NCBI RefSeq assembly: GCF_037081715.1
Contig: NZ_JAZDDH010000001.1
Span: 1,488,001 to 1,552,000 of the forward strand
Direction of reading: 5' to 3'
Length of the DNA: 64,000 nucleotides
DNA from: Halalkalicoccus sp. CG83
GTDB taxonomy: Archaea; Halobacteriota; Halobacteria; Halobacteriales; Halalkalicoccaceae
In this document: one piece after another, positions 43,137 to 53,500 of the stretch
Numbering within the stretch: the first letter of the stretch is position 1
Layout of the letters: each line of letters begins with the position of its first letter
Notes under the pieces: model-generated
Database searches by the model: none
Seen by the model: only the letters and a program-made list of their open reading frames with translations
Told to the model about the DNA's origin: nothing
Translations under genes and position numbers: made by a program

Positions 43137-44399
43137 TCAGTCCTCGTAGAGCGGGTGGGCCTCACACAGCGCGTCGACCTCCCGGCCGACCTCCTCGATC
43201 GCGCTCTCGTCGTCGGTGGCGGCCGCGTCGACCACGCGTGCGATGCAGTCACCGACGGTCCGCATCTCCTCCTCCTCGAACCCGCGGGTGGTGATCGCGG
43301 GCGTCCCCGCCCGAATCCCGCTCGGGTTGAACGCGCTGCGGGTCTCGCCGGGGACGGTGTTGGCGTTCAGGACGATCCCCGCCTCCTCCAGGGCGTCCTC
43401 GGCGTCGCCCCCGGTCGTCTCGGGGTGCGAGTCGCGCAGATCGACGAGCACGAGGTGGGTGTCGGTCCCGCCCGACACCAGCGAGAGGCCGTTCTCCTGG
43501 AGGGTCTCGCCCAGCGTGCGCGCGTTCTCGACGACCTGTTCCGCATACGCCTCGAACTCCGGCTGGAGTGCCTCCTGGAAGCCGACGGCCTTCCCGGCGA
43601 CGTTGTGCATCAGCGGCCCGCCCTGGGCGCCGGGGAAGACGGCCGAGTCGATATCGCCCGCGAACTCCTCCTCGCACATGATGATCCCGCCGCGACCCGA
43701 GCGGATCGTCTTGTGCGTCGAACCGGTGACGAAGTCCGCGATGCCGACCGGCGAGGCGTGGACGTCCGCCGCGACGAGCCCCGTGATGTGGGCGATGTCG
43801 GCGAGGTGGTAGGCACCGACGTCCTCGGCGACCGTTTGGATCCGCTCCCACTCGACCTCGCGCGGGTAGGCGGAGTAGCCCGAGACGATCACGTCGGGTT
43901 CGAACTCCGCCGCCTGCGCGGCGAGTCCCTCGTAGTCGATGTAGCCCGTCTCGGGGTCGACCTCGTACTGTTCGACCTCGAACAGCTGACCCGCGAAGTT
44001 CGCGGGATGGCCGTGGCTGAGGTGGCCGCCGTGGGTCAGATCGAGCGAGAGGATCTTATCGCCGGGCTCGAGCATCGCCAGGTAGACGCCCATGTTCGCC
44101 TGCGTTCCCGAGTGGGGCTGGACGTTGACGTGGTCGGCTCCCCAGAGCTCCTTCGCGCGTGAAACGGCGAGTTCCTCGACGCGGTCGGCGTGCTCGCAGC
44201 CGGCGTAGTATCGCTTTCCGGGGTAGCCCTCGGCGTACTTGTTGGTCAGTGCGCTGCTCTGTGCCTCGAGCACCGCGGACGAGACGTGGTTCTCGCTCGC
44301 GATCATCTGGAGGCCGGAGCGCTGGCGATCGACCTCCGACGTCAGCGCGTCGGCGACCGCGGGATCGATCTCGCGGACGGTGTCGTACTCCATGTCCAT
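43137..44399 (-). CDS. glyA: Serine hydroxymethyltransferase
   Basis: This PLP enzyme moves the one-carbon unit from serine to a folate. The 420-residue protein is of normal length. It has MIASENHVSSAVLEAQSSAL and NKYAEGYPGKRYYAGCEHAD (about 36-72), VNVQPHSGTQANMGVYLAML, LSHGHPANFAG, the lysine segment VTGSTHKTIRSGRGGIIMCE (about 221-240), and FNPSGIRAGTPAITTRGFEE near 358-377. The start is ATG 44399 or 44393. It is divergent from the CHAT gene, with 152 bases between. With FolD it makes methylene- and formyl-folate available. Confidence 0.97.
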   Translation of the reverse strand: MDMEYDTVREIDPAVADALTSEVDRQRSGLQMIASENHVSSAVLEAQSSALTNKYAEGYPGKRYYAGCEHADRVEELAVSRAKELWGADHVNVQPHSGTQANMGVYLAMLEPGDKILSLDLTHGGHLSHGHPANFAGQLFEVEQYEVDPETGYIDYEGLAAQAAEFEPDVIVSGYSAYPREVEWERIQTVAEDVGAYHLADIAHITGLVAADVHASPVGIADFVTGSTHKTIRSGRGGIIMCEEEFAGDIDSAVFPGAQGGPLMHNVAGKAVGFQEALQPEFEAYAEQVVENARTLGETLQENGLSLVSGGTDTHLVLVDLRDSHPETTGGDAEDALEEAGIVLNANTVPGETRSAFNPSGIRAGTPAITTRGFEEEEMRTVGDCIARVVDAAATDDESAIEEVGREVDALCEAHPLYED

Positions 44400-44538
44400 G
44401 GCTGGACGTTCGCCGCGCCGGTCTAAAGTCTACCTCATGTCGTCCGACGCGATGGCTTCGCTCGTCCGTCGTCGAACCTGACATCCCGGGAATATATCTG
44501 CCGACGCCGACAGACCTATTATCTACTGGTGACATCAC

Positions 44539-44556
44539 ATCATATCGTAATATGAT
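44539..44556. promoter_or_regulatory. Perfect inverted repeat over the CHAT gene start codon
   Basis: ATCATAT (44539-44545), spacer CGTA, ATATGAT (44550-44556) form a perfect seven-base inverted repeat, and the CHAT gene's ATG (44552) lies inside the right arm. TATTAT at about 44517-44523 is a likely TATA element placed for a leaderless start at that ATG. A protein bound here would block initiation, so this is a candidate operator. The binding protein is unknown; TbsP, encoded next downstream, is one candidate by position only. Confidence 0.5.
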
Positions 44557-46579
44557 CGACTGGGAGGTGACGACGGCGGGGTTGCGCGTGTCCGATCGTA
44601 GCGCCGCCGTCGAGATTTCCGCCCCCGATTGGGGGGAGTTCTACGCCGGCGGAACGCTCCCGCGCCCGGTCGATACGACCGTTTCCGGACAGGTCTCCAA
44701 ACTGGCATTCGGGACCGCGCGCGCGACGGTGACGAGCCTGAACGACGACGAGAGCTACGGGTCGCTGGCGCGCGGCCGAACCGAACTCTCGTCGGATCGG
44801 TACCTCCTCAGCATCGACACCCCGATCGAGACGGCGGTCCGGTTCGACGGGCCGGCGACCCTCTCGGCCCCCGATCAGTCGCTGGAGGTGACGCTCGACG
44901 ATCGTCAGACGGTCACGCTCGGCTTCCGAAGCCAGCTCCGCCGACCGGAGGCCACGGTGACGGTTCCGGACGATCCGGCCGGTCTCGCCCGCGCGGTCTC
45001 GCACCTCCACGCCGGCTTCGAGACGACGGGTCCCGAACGGTCGATCCCCGCCCTCCGCGGGCATCCGCCCCGGATCGAGTACGGCGAGACCTCGATCCCC
45101 GAGAGGGTCCGCGACGCGACGGCGGACACCGGGATCGAGATCGTCGTCCCCGACGATCACGAGTCCGTCCTCGTCACCGCGCCGCTCGCGTACTACCTCC
45201 AGGCGGCGGTCACGGTCGAGCCGGGAGCGACCCCGACCCTTCGAGCGCCCGCCGTCGGTCTCGAACGCGAACTAGAGGACGTCGAGGCGGCGGTCGAATC
45301 GCTGCTGCGACGAACGTTCTACCTCGACTGTTGTTGTCGGCGAGCGGGCCCGCTGTTGGCGGGTCTACCCGATCCGAGCGATCTGGGTCTCGACCCCGTC
45401 GCGCTCGAACACGCGAGTCCCGCCGAGCGGCTGCATGCGTATCTCGAGGGCTGTGACGACGGCGTCGACGACGAGGTTCCCGACTGGCACCTCTCGACGT
45501 CGCTCTCGATGGAGCCGGAGACCGCGCTGGCGCTGCCCTATCTGCTCGATCGACTCAGTCTGATCCACCGTCCGCGGACGCGGTCGCTCGACGGAAAGGA
45601 ACTGCTCAAACGGTCGTTGACCGACTTCTATCGCCGACCCGAGGCACGTCCGGCGGTGTCGGTCGACGTCGTCAGACCCCAGTCTACCCCGGGGCGTTCA
45701 CACGCCTGGATCGACGACACGACGCCGATCGACGTCTTCAGTCCGAGCACGCGGGCGTTCGAGAACGCGCTCGCCGGGCTCGATACGGACGGTCGACTCC
45801 CCTTCATCGTCGTCGGCAACGACCCGGAGATGGCCGAGGAGTGTCGCGAGGTCGCCCGGATCTACGAGGAACGCACGGCACGCCTCCCCATCGACGTGAC
45901 CGTCCATCACGGGCTCACCCGCGAGGAGCTCTCACAGGTGTTCCAGCGACGCAGCGCGTTCGTCCACTACATCGGTCACTGTGACGTCGACGGGCTGCGG
46001 TGTACCGACGGAAATCTCGCAACCGAATCGATCCCGGAGAGCAACGCCCAGACGTTCTTCCTGAACGCCTGCGGGAGTTACTACGAGGGACGGTCACTGA
46101 TCGAACGCGGGAGCGTCGCCGGCGGCGTGACGTTCTCGAAGGTGCTCAACGAGCAGGCCGCGACCGTCGGAACGACCTTCGCGCGGCTGCTGCTCGCGGG
46201 GTTCAGCATCGACCGCGCGATGCAGCTAGCCCGGCGCCAGATCATGATGGGGAAGAACTACGCCGTCGTCGGGGACGGAACCCACGTGCTCGGCGGTCGG
46301 CGCGATCGTCATCCGGGCACCGTCGTCGCCGACAGGACCGACGAGGACAGGTTCGCGATCACCTACGACGTCCTCCCCAACTGGACGGCGGGCAGTTGGT
46401 ACTACCCCGAGGGGATGGGCACCGACCGACCCCACCTCCTCGGAACGACGACCGAGTCGACGCTGGATCGGTCGTCGTTCCTCGAGATGCTGGAGTCGAT
46501 CGACGCACCGGTCGTCTACGACGGTCAGTTCTTCTGGCCGGAGGAACTCGCCACGCAGCTTCGCGTCCGGGTCGAGTGA
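44552..46579 (+). CDS. CHAT-domain (caspase-like) protein
   Basis: A 675-residue protein. Residues 1-250 are mostly beta-strand with repeated acidic turns and no recognised domain; 250-350 are helical with an odd DCCCRR cluster. The C-terminal third is a CHAT peptidase domain: the catalytic histidine lies in FVHYIGHCD (His472 or His476), the cysteine in FFLNACGSY (Cys507), and GGVTFSKVLNEQAATVGTTF with RAMQLARRQIMMG follow, as in caspase-fold proteins. CHAT proteases act in signalling, defence or programmed death, usually with a partner that controls cleavage. ATG 44552 is chosen because a TATA box and operator-like palindrome flank it. No clear partner gene or substrate is adjacent apart from tbsP downstream. 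Confidence 0.82.
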   Translation: MIDWEVTTAGLRVSDRSAAVEISAPDWGEFYAGGTLPRPVDTTVSGQVSKLAFGTARATVTSLNDDESYGSLARGRTELSSDRYLLSIDTPIETAVRFDGPATLSAPDQSLEVTLDDRQTVTLGFRSQLRRPEATVTVPDDPAGLARAVSHLHAGFETTGPERSIPALRGHPPRIEYGETSIPERVRDATADTGIEIVVPDDHESVLVTAPLAYYLQAAVTVEPGATPTLRAPAVGLERELEDVEAAVESLLRRTFYLDCCCRRAGPLLAGLPDPSDLGLDPVALEHASPAERLHAYLEGCDDGVDDEVPDWHLSTSLSMEPETALALPYLLDRLSLIHRPRTRSLDGKELLKRSLTDFYRRPEARPAVSVDVVRPQSTPGRSHAWIDDTTPIDVFSPSTRAFENALAGLDTDGRLPFIVVGNDPEMAEECREVARIYEERTARLPIDVTVHHGLTREELSQVFQRRSAFVHYIGHCDVDGLRCTDGNLATESIPESNAQTFFLNACGSYYEGRSLIERGSVAGGVTFSKVLNEQAATVGTTFARLLLAGFSIDRAMQLARRQIMMGKNYAVVGDGTHVLGGRRDRHPGTVVADRTDEDRFAITYDVLPNWTAGSWYYPEGMGTDRPHLLGTTTESTLDRSSFLEMLESIDAPVVYDGQFFWPEELATQLRVRVE

Positions 46580-46719
46580 GCGAGGCCGTCGGAGCGGGGG
46601 GGCGTACGCCGGCTCCCGATCGAGGGACGAAAACGCCGAGAACCGGCTCTCGGGAGGTCTGTCGGGTCCGTCAAGCCGTTATAATTAAATACCTGTGAAT
46701 ATATTGTGCACTCACAACT

Positions 46720-47535
46720 ATGGCCTCAAATTTACTGGACGACGACATCGAAGATATCCTTCGAACCGTCCTCGAAGACACCGACGAGACCCTGCTCGTC
46801 GTCAACCCGTCCGCGACCGCGATCGAGGAGCTGGTCGACGTCGCCGGTGGGCTCTCCGACCTACCGGAGATCCGACTCCTCGGCGATGAGTCGACGCTGA
46901 AGGACGTAATGGGCGACTTCATCCTCGCGAGCAACGCCGCCGACCTCGTCCACGAGGACGCGCTGCGGCTCAGAGTGCTCGAGGACGAGAACGAGAACTC
47001 GCTGCTGATCAGTCCCGATCAGGTCGTCGCGCTCATCAACGTCGGCGACACCGTCGCCGGACTGACGACTGACGATGCGGAGTTCGTCGACGTCGCGTAC
47101 GACGAGTACACGACCACGTGGGAGGGGGCCTCGGAGTTCAACCTCCGGACGCCGCCGCTCTCGCAGGTCCGCTCGACGCTCTCGGCCGACATCGGCGACG
47201 GCGTCGAGAACGACTTCACAGGCGTCCTCAGCTCGCTCCAGACCGCCCGTGGCGATGGCAACGGGCTCGACGAGGTGACGATCAGCCTGCTCGTCGCCGC
47301 GAAGAACGAGGTGCTGCTCTACGACATCAGCAAGTGGGGCGAGGACGTCGGCATCGCGAGCAAGGCAACGTTCTCGCGGACGAAGACCCGTCTCGAGGAC
47401 ATGGGCCTCATCGACACCGAGAAGGTCCCGATCGACGTCGGCCGACCCCGGCTCCGACTGAAGTTCGGCGACGAGCGCCTCTACGAGGCCAACACCGACC
47501 AGCTCGCGAGCGTCGCACAGAACCTCCTGACCTGA
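46720..47535 (+). CDS. tbsP: Transcriptional regulator TbsP
   Basis: A 271-residue protein matching the haloarchaeal TbsP family: an N-terminal domain (residues 1-150) beginning SNLLDDDIEDILRTVLEDTD with ISPDQVVALINVGDTVAGLT, and a C-terminal winged helix with AAKNEVLLYDISKWGEDVGI then ASKATFSRTKTRLEDMGLID. TbsP is known in Haloferax to act with TrmB on glycolysis/gluconeogenesis genes; that link also fits the PEP carboxykinase gene 4.5 kb away. ATTAAATA and AATATATT stretches precede ATG 46720. The ycaO gene starts 40 bases after its stop, so both may share a transcript. Confidence 0.87.
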   Translation: MASNLLDDDIEDILRTVLEDTDETLLVVNPSATAIEELVDVAGGLSDLPEIRLLGDESTLKDVMGDFILASNAADLVHEDALRLRVLEDENENSLLISPDQVVALINVGDTVAGLTTDDAEFVDVAYDEYTTTWEGASEFNLRTPPLSQVRSTLSADIGDGVENDFTGVLSSLQTARGDGNGLDEVTISLLVAAKNEVLLYDISKWGEDVGIASKATFSRTKTRLEDMGLIDTEKVPIDVGRPRLRLKFGDERLYEANTDQLASVAQNLLT

Positions 47536-47575
47536 GTCGGTCGGTTTTATTCCTCCCCGCGACCGATCCGACGCC

Positions 47576-49285
47576 ATGAGTACCGTCGGTATCGCGGGGT
47601 CGGGCCCCGCGACTGAGGCGATCGAGGCAGCGCTCGCGGACGCGGGGATCGACGCGGCGCGGGTCGACGTCGACGACCTTCCGAGCACTCGAGTCGGCGT
47701 CGTGATCGCGCGGACCGGGGACGACCGCTTCGCGCGTGCGAACGATGCCATCGAGGGCCCCTGGATCGCGGTCGAGCTGGGAGGCGTGGGAGGATACGCC
47801 CTCGAGGACGTCGTGGCCTCGGTCGCCGGCTTCACGCCCGAGACGGGCTGTTATACGTGTCTTCGAACGCGGGTCGCGGCCGGCGATCCCGCCGTCGACA
47901 GCGTCGAGACCGATCCTCGATCCGCCCGGTTCGCGGGCGCGATCGCCGGCTACGAACTCGTCGCCGCACTCGGCGGCGATGAGACCTCGCTTCTGGGCGG
48001 CGTCATCGAACTCCCGTACACGCAGCGACGGCTGCTTCCGGTACCGACCTGTTCCTGTGGCGAACGGACGCAGGCACCCGAGCGCGGCGAACGCGTAGAT
48101 CGACCGCTCGAGGACGCGATCGCCCGTGCGGAGGTCGCCGTCGACGAACGACTCGGGATCGTCCGCGAGGTCGGCGAGGTAGCGTCGTTCCCCGCACCGT
48201 ACTACCTGGCGACGGGGGCGGAGACGAGCGGGTTCAGCGACGTGAGCGCCGCGACGAAGGCCGCGGGCGTCGCCGTCGACTGGAACACGGCGTACATGCG
48301 CGCGCTCGGCGAGGCGCTCGAACGCTACGGGGCGGGCGTCTACCGGAACGCGAATCTCGATCACGATCGGCCCGCGGATCGACCCGACGCCGTCCCGCCC
48401 GCGGTCTTCGCCGGCGTCGAGGACACCGACGCGGAGATCCCGTGGGTCGACGGTGAGCGCCTCGATAGCGGTGAGTCCGTCTCGCTGCCCGCCGAGTTCG
48501 TCCACTTTCCGCCGCCGGAGAAGCGCTTCGGGTCGGCGATCACGACGGGTCTCGGACTGGGTAGCTCGCCCGACGCGGCGCTGCTCTCGGGGCTCTACGA
48601 GACCGTCGAGCGCGACGCGACGATGCTGGCGTGGTACTCGACGTTCGAGCCGCTCGAACTCGACGTCGAGGACGGGGGTTTCGAGACGCTCTCGCGGCGG
48701 GCGGCGAGCGAGGGGCTGTCAGTGACGCCACTGCTGGTGACCCAGGACGTCGACGTTCCCGTCGTGGCGGTGGCGGTCCACCGCGAGGGGAACGAACCGG
48801 ACGGCGAGGCCGGCTGGCCGCGGTTCGCCGTCGGTTCGGACGCGAACCTCGATACGAACGCCGCCGCTCGATCGGCGCTCTGTGAGGCGCTACAGAACTG
48901 GATGGAGCTGCGATCGATGGGTCCCGAAGGAGCCGAATCGTCATCGGGGTGGATCGGGCGATACGGCTCGTTCCCCGCCCCCGCTCGGGAGTTCATCGAC
49001 GTCGACGGCCGGGTCGACGCGTCGGCGGTCGGCGTCGACGTCTCCTCGGCGAACGAACTCGACACGGTGCTCGAGCGGATCACGGACGCCGGTCTGACGC
49101 CGTACGCCGCGTGGCTCACCCCGCGGGACGTTCGCGACCTCGGGTTCGAGGTCGCGCGCGTGCTGGTTCCGGAGGCCCAACCGCTGTTCACCCGAGAGCC
49201 GGTCTTCGCCGAGCGCGCGAGAACCGTGCCACGAAGCCTGGGGTTCGAACCCCGCCCGGACCGACAGCCCCATCCGTACCCCTGA
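47576..49285 (+). CDS. YcaO-type cyclodehydratase with fused E1-like N-terminal domain
   Basis: A 569-residue protein. Residues 1-180 form a truncated E1-like domain with the zinc cysteines GCYTCLRTR (Cys92, Cys95) and PTCSCGE (Cys159, Cys161), as in the C-part of thiazole/oxazole-forming complexes. Residues 200-569 are a YcaO domain: MRALGEALERYGAGVYR, ALLSGLYETVERDATMLAWY and ARSALCEALQNWMELRSMG supply the acidic ATP/Mg residues. The chain ends PHPYP, the PxPxP end seen in azoline-forming YcaO enzymes. Such enzymes use ATP to close Cys, Ser or Thr of a peptide into rings. No dehydrogenase, transporter or obvious precursor lies nearby, so the substrate is unknown. Confidence 0.85.
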   Translation: MSTVGIAGSGPATEAIEAALADAGIDAARVDVDDLPSTRVGVVIARTGDDRFARANDAIEGPWIAVELGGVGGYALEDVVASVAGFTPETGCYTCLRTRVAAGDPAVDSVETDPRSARFAGAIAGYELVAALGGDETSLLGGVIELPYTQRRLLPVPTCSCGERTQAPERGERVDRPLEDAIARAEVAVDERLGIVREVGEVASFPAPYYLATGAETSGFSDVSAATKAAGVAVDWNTAYMRALGEALERYGAGVYRNANLDHDRPADRPDAVPPAVFAGVEDTDAEIPWVDGERLDSGESVSLPAEFVHFPPPEKRFGSAITTGLGLGSSPDAALLSGLYETVERDATMLAWYSTFEPLELDVEDGGFETLSRRAASEGLSVTPLLVTQDVDVPVVAVAVHREGNEPDGEAGWPRFAVGSDANLDTNAAARSALCEALQNWMELRSMGPEGAESSSGWIGRYGSFPAPAREFIDVDGRVDASAVGVDVSSANELDTVLERITDAGLTPYAAWLTPRDVRDLGFEVARVLVPEAQPLFTREPVFAERARTVPRSLGFEPRPDRQPHPYP

Positions 49286-49291
49286 CCGGCC

Positions 49292-49627
49292 TCAATCGAC
49301 CCGTTCGACCGTGATTGCGAGCGTCTCTCCGTCGTCCAGTCGAACGGCGAACGAGTCGCGGGACCGCTCCGCCTCGTGGATCTCCGTTACCTCTCCGGAG
49401 ACGAGGTCGACGGCATCGCGGTCCTCTCTCCCACGAAGCGTCGGTACCACCACCTGCGTACCGACGGGTTCGTCGTGGTGGGACCGATCCGGTCCGATCC
49501 GCGGCAGCGCTTCCTTGACTAGCCGCCACATACACAGCGCACAGCAGTCCTCCATGCGGCCGTAGTAACAGCCAGGTCGATGCTCGGGGAGGTGACGCTT
49601 CCCGTCCGGTCCGCGTTGACCTATCAT
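49292..49627 (-). CDS. Small four-cysteine protein facing the YcaO gene
   Basis: A 111-residue protein. The N-terminal part carries PGCYYGRMEDCCALCMWRL with cysteines at 20, 28, 29 and 32, a likely metal-binding knot. Residues 52-111 form a beta-rich, barrel-like domain (VVVPTLRGREDRDAVDLVSG; SFAVRLDDGETLAITVERVD). An AT-rich TATA-like TTAACTATATT lies about 27 bases before ATG 49627, suggesting a leaderless transcript. Its stop is six bases from the convergent YcaO stop. I do not recognise the family. A link to YcaO is suggested only by position. Confidence 0.65.
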   Translation of the reverse strand: MIGQRGPDGKRHLPEHRPGCYYGRMEDCCALCMWRLVKEALPRIGPDRSHHDEPVGTQVVVPTLRGREDRDAVDLVSGEVTEIHEAERSRDSFAVRLDDGETLAITVERVD

Positions 49628-49691: not shown

Positions 49692-50828
49692 TTAGATTCC
49701 GAACGTCGCCCGGAGGAAGTCGCGCGTGCCGGGACCGAGACCGACGGCGGTGACGGCGACCAGGAGCAGCATCGAGTAGCGGGGACTCTCCTCGAAGATC
49801 TCCTCGTTGAACACCCAGACGACGAACAGGGCGGCGCCGACCTTCACGAACAGGAACGGCCACGCGGTGCCGATCGCGCTCGATACCGACTCGGGTTGGA
49901 GCGCCCCGGTCACGTCGACGATCGCGCTGTTCACCACGTGTTTGGGCGTGTACGTCGGCAGTCCGAGCGCCGACGCCCAGTCGAGGCTGAGCACGTTCGC
50001 GATCCCGTCGACGGTGTGGCCCCAGACGACGAGCACGCCCATGTAGCCCGTACCGGCGTTGACTTCGGGGGCGTAACGTTCGGTCCCGACCCAGGCGAGT
50101 GCGGCTATCAGCGTCGCGCCGCCGAGGGTGACGATCGAGACGATCGGATGGAAGCCGAGGAGTCCGGTCGTGTTCGCGAGCCAGCCGAGGTAACCGACGG
50201 TCACGACGAGCGCGGCCGTTCCGATCCCGGCGAGGGGGTACTCGTACCGATCGACGGGCCCTCGGCGGGCGGCGGCGACGCTGAGAAGCACCGCGGCGAG
50301 CGTGACGAAGAAGACCGTGAAGTAGATCAGGGGACTGATGAGCAGGCCGCTCCACGGGAACGGGATCGCGGGATCGCCCGCCCGCAGCAGCGCGATGCTC
50401 GCGTCCTCGACGGTCCTGAGCGCGCCGCCGAACAGCATGAACGGGAACAGCGCGAAGAAGAAACCGTGTCCGCTCCCGATATCGAGTCGCTGCAGCAGGA
50501 ACACGACGCCGACCAGGGCGAAGACGAGAATCAGCGCGTAGCTGACCGTCGAGATCGTCGTGTAGCCGGGCTCGGCGACGACGCCGGCAGCCCGCTGGCA
50601 TTCGCTCGCACCGTCGAGCAGCACGGTCTCGCCGTCGACCCGCCGTGCGCAGGTCGAGCCGGTGCCGTCGGCGACGACCGGACCCCAGAAGTACTTCCAG
50701 ACGAACCCGTCGTACACCCGCCGAGGGAAGGCGAGCGAGCCGACGACGAGGGCGATGATCGCTCCCGCCAGCGTCGCCGCCCACGCTCGGACGGGATCGA
50801 TCCGGTCGAACGCGTCGTTCATGTCCAT
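49692..50828 (-). CDS. DUF63-family integral membrane protein
   Basis: A 378-residue protein with about nine membrane segments. The DUF63 signatures are RRVYDGFVWKYFWGPVVADG near the start, FMLFGGALRTVEDASIALLR near 150-170, and VVWGHTVDGIANVLSLDWAS near 255-275, ending FVVWVFNEEIFEESP. The family is archaeal and its function is unknown; conserved charged residues inside membrane segments suggest an enzyme or transporter. Two close ATGs exist (50828 and 50822). It ends in an AT-rich intergenic gap. Confidence 0.9.
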   Translation of the reverse strand: MDMNDAFDRIDPVRAWAATLAGAIIALVVGSLAFPRRVYDGFVWKYFWGPVVADGTGSTCARRVDGETVLLDGASECQRAAGVVAEPGYTTISTVSYALILVFALVGVVFLLQRLDIGSGHGFFFALFPFMLFGGALRTVEDASIALLRAGDPAIPFPWSGLLISPLIYFTVFFVTLAAVLLSVAAARRGPVDRYEYPLAGIGTAALVVTVGYLGWLANTTGLLGFHPIVSIVTLGGATLIAALAWVGTERYAPEVNAGTGYMGVLVVWGHTVDGIANVLSLDWASALGLPTYTPKHVVNSAIVDVTGALQPESVSSAIGTAWPFLFVKVGAALFVVWVFNEEIFEESPRYSMLLLVAVTAVGLGPGTRDFLRATFGI

Positions 50829-50848
50829 GAGGGTGATCGGTGACCGTT

Positions 50849-51358
50849 TCAGGGTTCCGATCCGTCGAGGGCGGTCGACCGACCGCCCTCGGCGGCTCGA
50901 CGGATCCCTTCGAGGGTATCGGCGACGTCCTCCCAGTGGCTGCCCTGCCAGAACGGCTGTCCACAATCGCGACACCGCCAGACCGGCGTTCCGTCGGGAT
51001 CGGGAGCGAACGGCGGGGTGGCCTCCTCCGGGCCGAGTCGGTCCAGTCGACCGTTGCAGCGCGAACACCGGGACGGAGCGTCGAGCGAGAGCGCATACCC
51101 GCGACGTGAGAGCTCCAGGAGCTGTCCTCGGACGTCATGCGACTCGAGCAGGAGTCCGTCCGACGCGTTCGTCGCGAGTTCGACGTCGCGCGTGAGTAGC
51201 GTGCGTCCCTCCCGGTCCGCGGCCGAGCACAGGACCGCGTCGTCCTCCACGCCGCGATCGAGCGCGTAGGCGGCGTCGTACCCACACATCCGAAGGTAGG
51301 TCGCGAGCTTACCGAGCATCACATCGAGCAGGAGGCGGACGTCGGCTGGCGTGGGCAT
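50849..51358 (-). CDS. Mut7-C RNase domain protein with zinc ribbon
   Basis: A 169-residue protein of the Mut7-C (PIN-like) type: DVMLGKLATYLRMCGYDAAY (residues 12-31), DAVLCSAADREGRTLLTRDV (about 40-59) with the PIN-like acidic residues, then a zinc ribbon CSRCNGRLDR...WRCRDCGQPFWQGSHW (about 96-139). Family members are thought to cut RNA. It starts at ATG 51358 and runs the same way as the DUF63 gene, 20 bases upstream of it, so the two likely share a transcript. Confidence 0.9.
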   Translation of the reverse strand: MPTPADVRLLLDVMLGKLATYLRMCGYDAAYALDRGVEDDAVLCSAADREGRTLLTRDVELATNASDGLLLESHDVRGQLLELSRRGYALSLDAPSRCSRCNGRLDRLGPEEATPPFAPDPDGTPVWRCRDCGQPFWQGSHWEDVADTLEGIRRAAEGGRSTALDGSEP

Positions 51359-51973: not shown

Positions 51974-53500
51974 ATGTCAGGCGATGCCACCCCGGGCGAG
52001 CCGATCAGCGTACGCCGATCGGTCACGCCCGAAACGGACTTCCCCGATCCGGACGCCGAGACCGTCACGTACGACCCGAGCCTCGAACGGCTTCGAGAGT
52101 TCTCGAGGCCGCTCGAGACGACCACCGAATACGCCAGCCCCGCGTACGTCAGCGAGTTTCGGTCCCGGAGCGCCGACCGAACGAAGAACACGGTCGACGA
52201 TCCGTTCACGGAGGAGGACTGGCGACTCATCCAGGGTGCGATCGATCGAATGAGCGAGACGGAGCTCGTCTGTGTCGATCGGATGGTCGGTCGCGAGCAC
52301 GCCTACTGCTGTCGGCTGTTCGTTCCGAAGAAGTACGGCCGGATCGCGCTCGCGTGGGCGAAGCTCCTCGATCCGGTGTCCGAGGGTCGCGAACCCGATT
52401 TCTATACGGTCCAGCTGCCCGACTGGGAGGAGACGGCGATACGGGTGCTGCCCGAGTCGGGCGTGACGGTCGTGGTCGGTAGCGACTACACCGGCGAGGC
52501 CAAGAAGTCGTTCCTCCGGCTGTTCATGTACTACGCCAAACGATGCGGTGGGCTGGGGTTGCACGCCGGTACCAAACGCGTGCGTATCGAGGCCGACGGG
52601 GAACTCGAGGACGTCACCCAGCTGTTCCTCGGGCTGAGCGGCACCGGGAAGTCGACGCTCACCGGTCACGGTTGCTGGCTCTCGGACCCCGAGGAGGCGG
52701 TCATGCTTCAGGACGACGTCTGTGCGCTCTTTCCCGACGGCACCGTTGCGGGTAGCGAGGGCGGCGGACTCTACATCAAAACGATGGAGCTCGATGGCGA
52801 CGAACAGCCGGCGCTGTATCACGCCGCGACCCGTCCCGAGGCCGTGCTGGAGAACGTCGCCGTCGACGATGACGGCACTGTGGATTTCGACGACGGTTCG
52901 CTCACGACCAACGGCCGCGCGGTGATCCGCCGGGAGGACCTCCGAAGCGCCGCCGCCGGGATCGACTGTGACCGCGCCGATCAGGTCTTCTTCATCACTC
53001 GCAACCCGCTGATGCCACCGATCTCGCGGCTGTCTACCGACCAGGCAGCGGCCGCGTTCATGCTCGGCGAGTCGATCGAGACGAGCGCGGGCGACCCCGA
53101 GCGGGCAGGTGAGTCGATCCGGGTCGTCGGGACGAACCCGTTCATCATGGGCCCGGAGGGCCAGGAAGGGAACCGCTTTGTCGACCTGATCGAGCAGACC
53201 GACGCCGAGTGTTACGTGCTCAACACCGGTTACGTCGGCGATGCGGAGAAACCGATCGAGGTCGAGCACACGATCTCGATCCTCATGGCCGCCGCACGTG
53301 GCGAGATCGACTGGACCCACGAGTCGACGCTCGGGCTCGACGTCCCCAGACGCGTCCCCGGAATGCCGATCGAGGAGTTTAGGCTTGCGGATCACTGCGA
53401 GGACTACGAAACCCAACTTGCCGAGCTTCGCGAGGAACGCCGGGAGTACTTAGCGGGGTTCGAGACGCTTCGCGAGGGGATCCGGGAGGCGGTCTACTGA
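51974..53500 (+). CDS. pckA: Phosphoenolpyruvate carboxykinase (ATP)
   Basis: It makes phosphoenolpyruvate from oxaloacetate and ATP, a first step of gluconeogenesis. The 508-residue protein has the kinase core: VGSDYTGEAKKSFLRLFMYY (about 162-181), the P-loop LFLGLSGTGKSTLTGHGCWL (about 217-236), QDDVCALFPDGTVAGSEGGG then LYIKTMELD, and RNPLMPPISRLSTDQAAAAF. Length fits ATP-type enzymes. AGTTAAC lies about 35 bases before ATG 51974. TbsP, a regulator tied to central carbon genes in Haloferax, is encoded 4.5 kb away. Confidence 0.96.
   Translation: MSGDATPGEPISVRRSVTPETDFPDPDAETVTYDPSLERLREFSRPLETTTEYASPAYVSEFRSRSADRTKNTVDDPFTEEDWRLIQGAIDRMSETELVCVDRMVGREHAYCCRLFVPKKYGRIALAWAKLLDPVSEGREPDFYTVQLPDWEETAIRVLPESGVTVVVGSDYTGEAKKSFLRLFMYYAKRCGGLGLHAGTKRVRIEADGELEDVTQLFLGLSGTGKSTLTGHGCWLSDPEEAVMLQDDVCALFPDGTVAGSEGGGLYIKTMELDGDEQPALYHAATRPEAVLENVAVDDDGTVDFDDGSLTTNGRAVIRREDLRSAAAGIDCDRADQVFFITRNPLMPPISRLSTDQAAAAFMLGESIETSAGDPERAGESIRVVGTNPFIMGPEGQEGNRFVDLIEQTDAECYVLNTGYVGDAEKPIEVEHTISILMAAARGEIDWTHESTLGLDVPRRVPGMPIEEFRLADHCEDYETQLAELREERREYLAGFETLREGIREAVY

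Follow-up and report, generated by a model that had tools for sequence, protein, structure and literature searches.

The window analyzed here was a stretch of 64,000 nucleotides from Halalkalicoccus sp. CG83. The first-pass annotation of this DNA had placed four genes side by side, namely a CHAT protein with an intact His/Cys pair, the regulator TbsP, a fused E1-like/YcaO enzyme starting 40 bases after tbsP, and a small four-cysteine protein facing ycaO, and had raised the possibility that they acted as one system. All four genes were found exactly where they had been called and the gap between tbsP and ycaO measured 40 bases. These genes, their flanking genes and the promoter-like elements between them are listed in Table 1. 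Additionally, an ATP-type phosphoenolpyruvate carboxykinase gene (51974-53500) was located near the gene for the sugar-metabolism regulator TbsP; among the loci read, the cluster of this carboxykinase gene was seen only in Halalkalicoccus.

Table 1. Genes and promoter-like elements at the locus, in window coordinates.
Feature	Position	Strand	Remarks
glyA, serine hydroxymethyltransferase	43137..44399	-	Divergent from CHAT, anchors the conserved block; Pfam SHMT E 2.7e-150
CHAT promoter-like element CCGACAGACCTATTATC	44507..44523	+	Counterparts in families f5 and f4
CHAT-family caspase-like cysteine protease, 675 aa	44552..46579	+	Dyad His476/Cys507, invariant His472
tbsP promoter-like element CCGTTATAATTAAATA	46676..46691	+	AWWTTAART-like
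tbsP, transcriptional regulator	46720..47535	+	NF047393, 411 bits; TbsP_N and HTH_TbsP_C
ycaO TATA-like element TTTTATT	47545..47551	+	About 27-28 bp before start
E1-like/YcaO fusion enzyme (CD fusion of the haloazolisin type), no RRE, C-terminal HPYP	47576..49285	+	
Small four-cysteine (CX7CCX2C) protein	49292..49627	-	Lineage-specific neighbor, outside the block
DUF63 membrane protein	49692..51068	-	Pfam DUF63 E 1.3e-36; frequent neighbor downstream of ycaO in many genomes

The sequence of the CHAT protein matched the Pfam CHAT family slightly below its gathering score (21.6 bits against 24, E 1.7e-4), and a search of the PDB sequences with a CHAT profile returned nothing up to E 1. In structure comparisons of the predicted model (pLDDT 86), residues about 312-620 matched gingipain RgpB with Z 21.0 over 242 residues at 2.8 A; the model also matched SAVED-CHAT (Z 18.8 over 171 residues), separases (Z about 16) and the Craspase TPR-CHAT (Z about 14). 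The predicted fold thus confirmed the protein as a caspase-fold member of clan CD. The His/Cys pair was intact as claimed: His472, Gly475, His476 and the NACGS motif with Cys507 were invariant in 37 orthologues, and His476 was the likely catalytic partner of Cys507. The CHAT protein was 71% identical to that of Halalkalicoccus paucihalophilus. None of the four proteins matched a PADLOC model at E<=1, and the reading of the locus as an anti-phage defense system was rejected on these grounds.

The identity of TbsP was secured by its equivalog model, for which the cut-off was 300 bits. The YcaO protein was recognized by PF02624 (E 8e-45), while its score with TIGR03604 (211 bits) was slightly under the cut-off of 219. 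According to its predicted structure (pLDDT 95), residues 1-160 formed an E1-like domain resembling MoeB and ThiF (Z about 13-13.5), which was followed by the YcaO domain, in agreement with the proposed fusion. The model matched the YcaO of M. jannaschii with Z 39 and LynD with Z 37 over 529 residues. In LynD, TruD and MusD the N-terminal part is a leader-peptide clamp. Since the structural alignment with these three enzymes began only at their residues 107-112, after the clamp region, the modeled haloarchaeal YcaO lacked the clamp (RRE). Among 61 orthologues, E342, E345, R346, D347, E437, Q440 and the HPxP end were invariant, and the zinc-type cysteines 92, 95 and 159 were nearly so. This conservation suggested that an active, leader-independent YcaO was the best reading of the protein.

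The four-cysteine ORF matched none of the Pfam, NCBIfam or PADLOC families, and its third-position GC was 0.73 in comparison to 0.85-0.93 for its neighbors. A copy with 39% identity was present at the identical site in H. paucihalophilus and kept the cysteine motif, therefore the ORF was a real gene. Matches to this protein were found in 8 of the 116 genomes surveyed below and, except in the window, were hundreds of kilobases away from ycaO or on another contig. Because the gene was rare and was adjacent to ycaO only in Halalkalicoccus, it dropped out of the proposed system. The motif CYxxRxxxCCxLC also defined a scattered small family in several haloarchaeal genera (window 49292-49627; L152:9742-10089; L032-L036), possibly with a metal-binding function.

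We surveyed 116 Halobacteria genomes drawn from the class, where genes were considered linked if they were within 6 kb according to coordinates from homology searches. YcaO was present in all 116 genomes, TbsP in 114, and CHAT relatives of any kind in 103. The tbsP and ycaO genes were linked in 81 genomes, CHAT and tbsP were neighbors in at least 68 (every time on the same strand), and all three genes were together in at least 42. Conserved linkage of two or more of the four genes, which the first-pass annotation had named as support for a system, was therefore observed. Adjacency was beyond chance for CHAT, tbsP and ycaO; the four-cysteine gene showed no such linkage beyond one genus and this part of the proposed four-gene system did not hold. 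Moreover, the linkage of the three genes was part of a wider core block that included glyA and folD.

Gene-order maps of the window and 79 further loci revealed the conserved order folD-glyA-[CHAT]-tbsP-ycaO, often followed by the DUF63 gene. The CHAT gene occupied exactly the junction between glyA and tbsP; genomes without it kept glyA and tbsP side by side with ycaO following, and in about 20 CHAT-lacking tbsP loci read on the maps there was no CHAT gene near tbsP. In named genomes, GlyA adjoined 77 and TbsP 74 of 80 CHAT loci. Among the six loci without TbsP, two stopped early in the contig, and in the other four (three Natronorubrum and one Halostagnicola) the 5 kb after CHAT contained no TbsP. 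One sampled genome (G033) had CHAT with glyA but separated from tbsP. Breaks were thus seen on both sides of CHAT, and its linkage with tbsP was no tighter than that with glyA. In family f4, CHAT and tbsP were kept together in 26 of 27 genomes with ycaO located elsewhere. The block after CHAT-tbsP in this family (L093-L108) was rebuilt with Pop5-like and proteasome alpha-subunit-like genes in place of ycaO. When mapped on a GlyA+YcaO tree, CHAT changed between presence and absence 10 times, including at least six times on well-supported branches. Outside Halobacteria but in the same phylum, all four sampled genomes of family f17 (G123, G132, G141, G150; L238-L241) had CHAT homologues in a shared context of UPF0146-like and acetyltransferase-like genes (judged by sight), and these loci gave no TbsP or GlyA match. 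Because this context was different, the linkage of CHAT with glyA and tbsP was a haloarchaeal feature.

Each of the three linked genes had its own conserved upstream element. At an equal distance from the ATG, the CHAT element was replaced by CCGACAGAGATATACG in the genomes of family f5 and by CCGATACAACTAACT in those of family f4. The core of the f4 element, CGATACAACTAA, occurred in exactly one copy per genome in five of the six genomes searched, each time at CHAT; a regulon under this element was rejected since there were no further exact copies. Of 60 genomes, 44 had a tbsP box (TAAAATTAAATA-like; AWWTTAART-like) no more than 70 bp from the start, whether CHAT was present or not, and no such box was found upstream of ycaO, CHAT or glyA. 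The T-rich element of ycaO was at the same distance (about 27-28 bp) in most ycaO genes, both linked to tbsP and unlinked. As judged from the sequences, these three different elements argued for three promoters and therefore against one operon.

The initial proposal was that a peptide modified by YcaO was cut or sensed by the CHAT protein. In the corresponding RiPP-like system, YcaO would modify a precursor (perhaps the four-cysteine protein), CHAT would be the leader peptidase and TbsP the regulator. The adjacency within the window was consistent with this proposal, as were the retained catalytic residues and HPxP end of YcaO and the former classification of the haloazolisin family among the TOMM clusters (PMC4603692). 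However, the enzyme had no leader-binding domain, not only in our model but also according to Cox et al. (2015), who named the haloazolisin synthetases and noted their truncation and the missing precursor-binding region (PMC4603692). It was also universal, rather than patchy or lineage-restricted as for a secondary-metabolite cluster, yet CHAT was missing from the locus in many genomes, the two genes were unlinked in f4, and the suggested precursor gene was confined to the few genomes described above. No conserved neighbor resembling a precursor peptide was seen among ORFs of at least 60 aa. Costa et al. (2023) likewise found no conserved precursor gene; they reported the ycaO gene in all haloarchaea beside a protein of unknown function and SHMT, and deletion of ycaO left the antihaloarchaeal activity intact (PMC9953058). 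Thus, with the separation in f4, three promoter-like elements and a universal YcaO without a leader-binding domain, the peptide proposal was unsupported and we considered such a system very improbable.

A different relationship was suggested by the paralogues of CHAT, which were present in most genomes with about 31-36% identity. A DUF7504 gene was alongside 12 of the 19 paralogue loci read (L132-L150), four of which were Pfam-tested, and one paralogue was beside a HalOD1-DUF7504 fusion. Among 25 plasmid records with a CHAT gene, at least 12 had CHAT and DUF7504 within 4 kb of each other; pairs were present on NZ_CP100001, NZ_CP085306, NZ_CP007057 and others. Some of the DUF7504 genes next to CHAT paralogues were fused to HalOD1 or adjoined HalX-like response regulators. 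No report of this pairing was found in the literature searched. A relationship between the N-terminal domain of TbsP and DUF7504 would unify both CHAT contexts, but was rejected at an hhalign probability of 0.3%. From these neighbors and the fold, haloarchaeal CHAT proteins resembled regulated proteases associated with genes for sensing or regulation.

Two further explanations focused on the partners of CHAT. In one of them, CHAT and TbsP would be a functional pair, where CHAT cleaved or controlled TbsP, or TbsP controlled the expression of CHAT, so that central carbon metabolism would be switched by proteolysis. The position of CHAT directly upstream of tbsP on the same strand in all linked genomes pointed to such a pair, as did its retention in f4 after ycaO had moved out of the block, and there was a precedent in cyanobacteria, where HetF, a CHAT putative protease, affected the regulator HetR (PMC8406250 and references therein). 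The median TbsP/GlyA divergence ratio was also higher in genomes without CHAT (2.42 vs 1.98, uncorrected p 1e-4); however, a phylogenetically controlled test gave no signal and had no power with only six supported independent pairs, so that faster TbsP evolution after CHAT loss was set aside as proof of a partnership. Moreover, about 40% of genomes kept tbsP without a neighboring CHAT, breaks between the two genes did occur, the linkage with glyA was as tight, and gaps of 70-1000 bp with separate promoter-like elements spoke against one operon. Such a pair, suggested by position, was rather unlikely, although it was the better of the two explanations. In the other, CHAT would be a signaling or stress-response protease whose usual partners were sensor-type DUF7504/HalOD1 proteins, and the glyA-linked clade would have drifted to a private role for which its neighbors were irrelevant. 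The frequent pairing of the paralogues with DUF7504, both in the loci read and on plasmids, and the HalOD1 fusion favored this idea. On the other hand, the glyA-linked clade itself had no DUF7504 neighbor, DUF7504 was without known function, and TbsP was not detectably related to it. We considered this explanation improbable.

We therefore favored the reading that the haloarchaeal neighborhood folD-glyA-[CHAT]-tbsP-ycaO-DUF63 was probably a set of separately promoted genes and no single biosynthetic system, with CHAT as a regulated selective protease. It was the separation in f4, the individual promoter-like elements and the YcaO without a leader-binding domain that spoke against one system. 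However, the CHAT-tbsP linkage, held in f4 despite the change of the block, could still mean a real partnership, which the divergence ratios would fit. Under the favored reading, YcaO would be a backbone-modifying enzyme that is universal, ATP-dependent and independent of a leader, probably acting by cyclodehydration of a housekeeping protein, whose companion TbsP was the regulator already known from sugar metabolism. CHAT itself would be an intracellular caspase-fold cysteine endopeptidase with the dyad in its C-terminal half, while its beta-rich N-terminal domain would probably sense or bind a partner. By analogy with other CHAT/separase-type enzymes, it was most likely a regulated, selective protease, and TbsP was only one candidate among its possible substrates.

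The little-studied piece of this neighborhood was the CHAT protease. Its caspase-fold relatives were widespread in haloarchaea, yet they were scarcely recognized by the main domain library. It has been reported that Haloferax has strong caspase-like activity without a known gene (PMC3615174), therefore the CHAT genes were concrete candidates, and a possible link between the two was an attractive idea. The Haloferax locus itself appeared to be glyA-tbsP-ycaO without CHAT (PMC9953058). The broader proposal that the haloarchaeal CHAT family was the source of the caspase-like activity and that its glyA-tbsP-linked member was a proteolytic switch of central carbon regulation was a long shot. A second lead came from the DUF7504/HalOD1 genes that recurred beside CHAT paralogues, and the survey removed a misleading RiPP reading of the neighborhood.

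In comparison to known systems, the YcaO described here was the same protein as the haloazolisin-type enzyme (PMC4603692, PMC9953058), a fused and truncated E1-like/YcaO present in all haloarchaea, and nothing essential differed. The adjacent protein, earlier of unknown function, was TbsP. New with respect to these papers were the position of CHAT within this block, the gene-order survey of 116 genomes and the structure-based statement on the missing clamp. With the azoline-forming cyclodehydratases LynD and TruD (Z 30-37) the haloarchaeal enzyme shared an E1-like domain joined to YcaO, the catalytic residues and a C-terminus containing proline, whereas their N-terminal region of about 110 residues with the leader-peptide clamp was missing from it. 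The CHAT protein shared the caspase fold and the invariant His and Cys with clan CD proteases (CHAT/separase/gingipain, SAVED-CHAT and Craspase TPR-CHAT). Unlike SAVED-CHAT and the Craspase TPR-CHAT, it had a beta-rich N-terminal region, neither a TPR nor a SAVED domain was seen in it, and it had no CRISPR or CBASS neighbors. Finally, HetF was a CHAT putative protease that, together with regulators of heterocyst development, was similarly tied to a transcriptional program, while in haloarchaea the link between CHAT and TbsP was a positional one.
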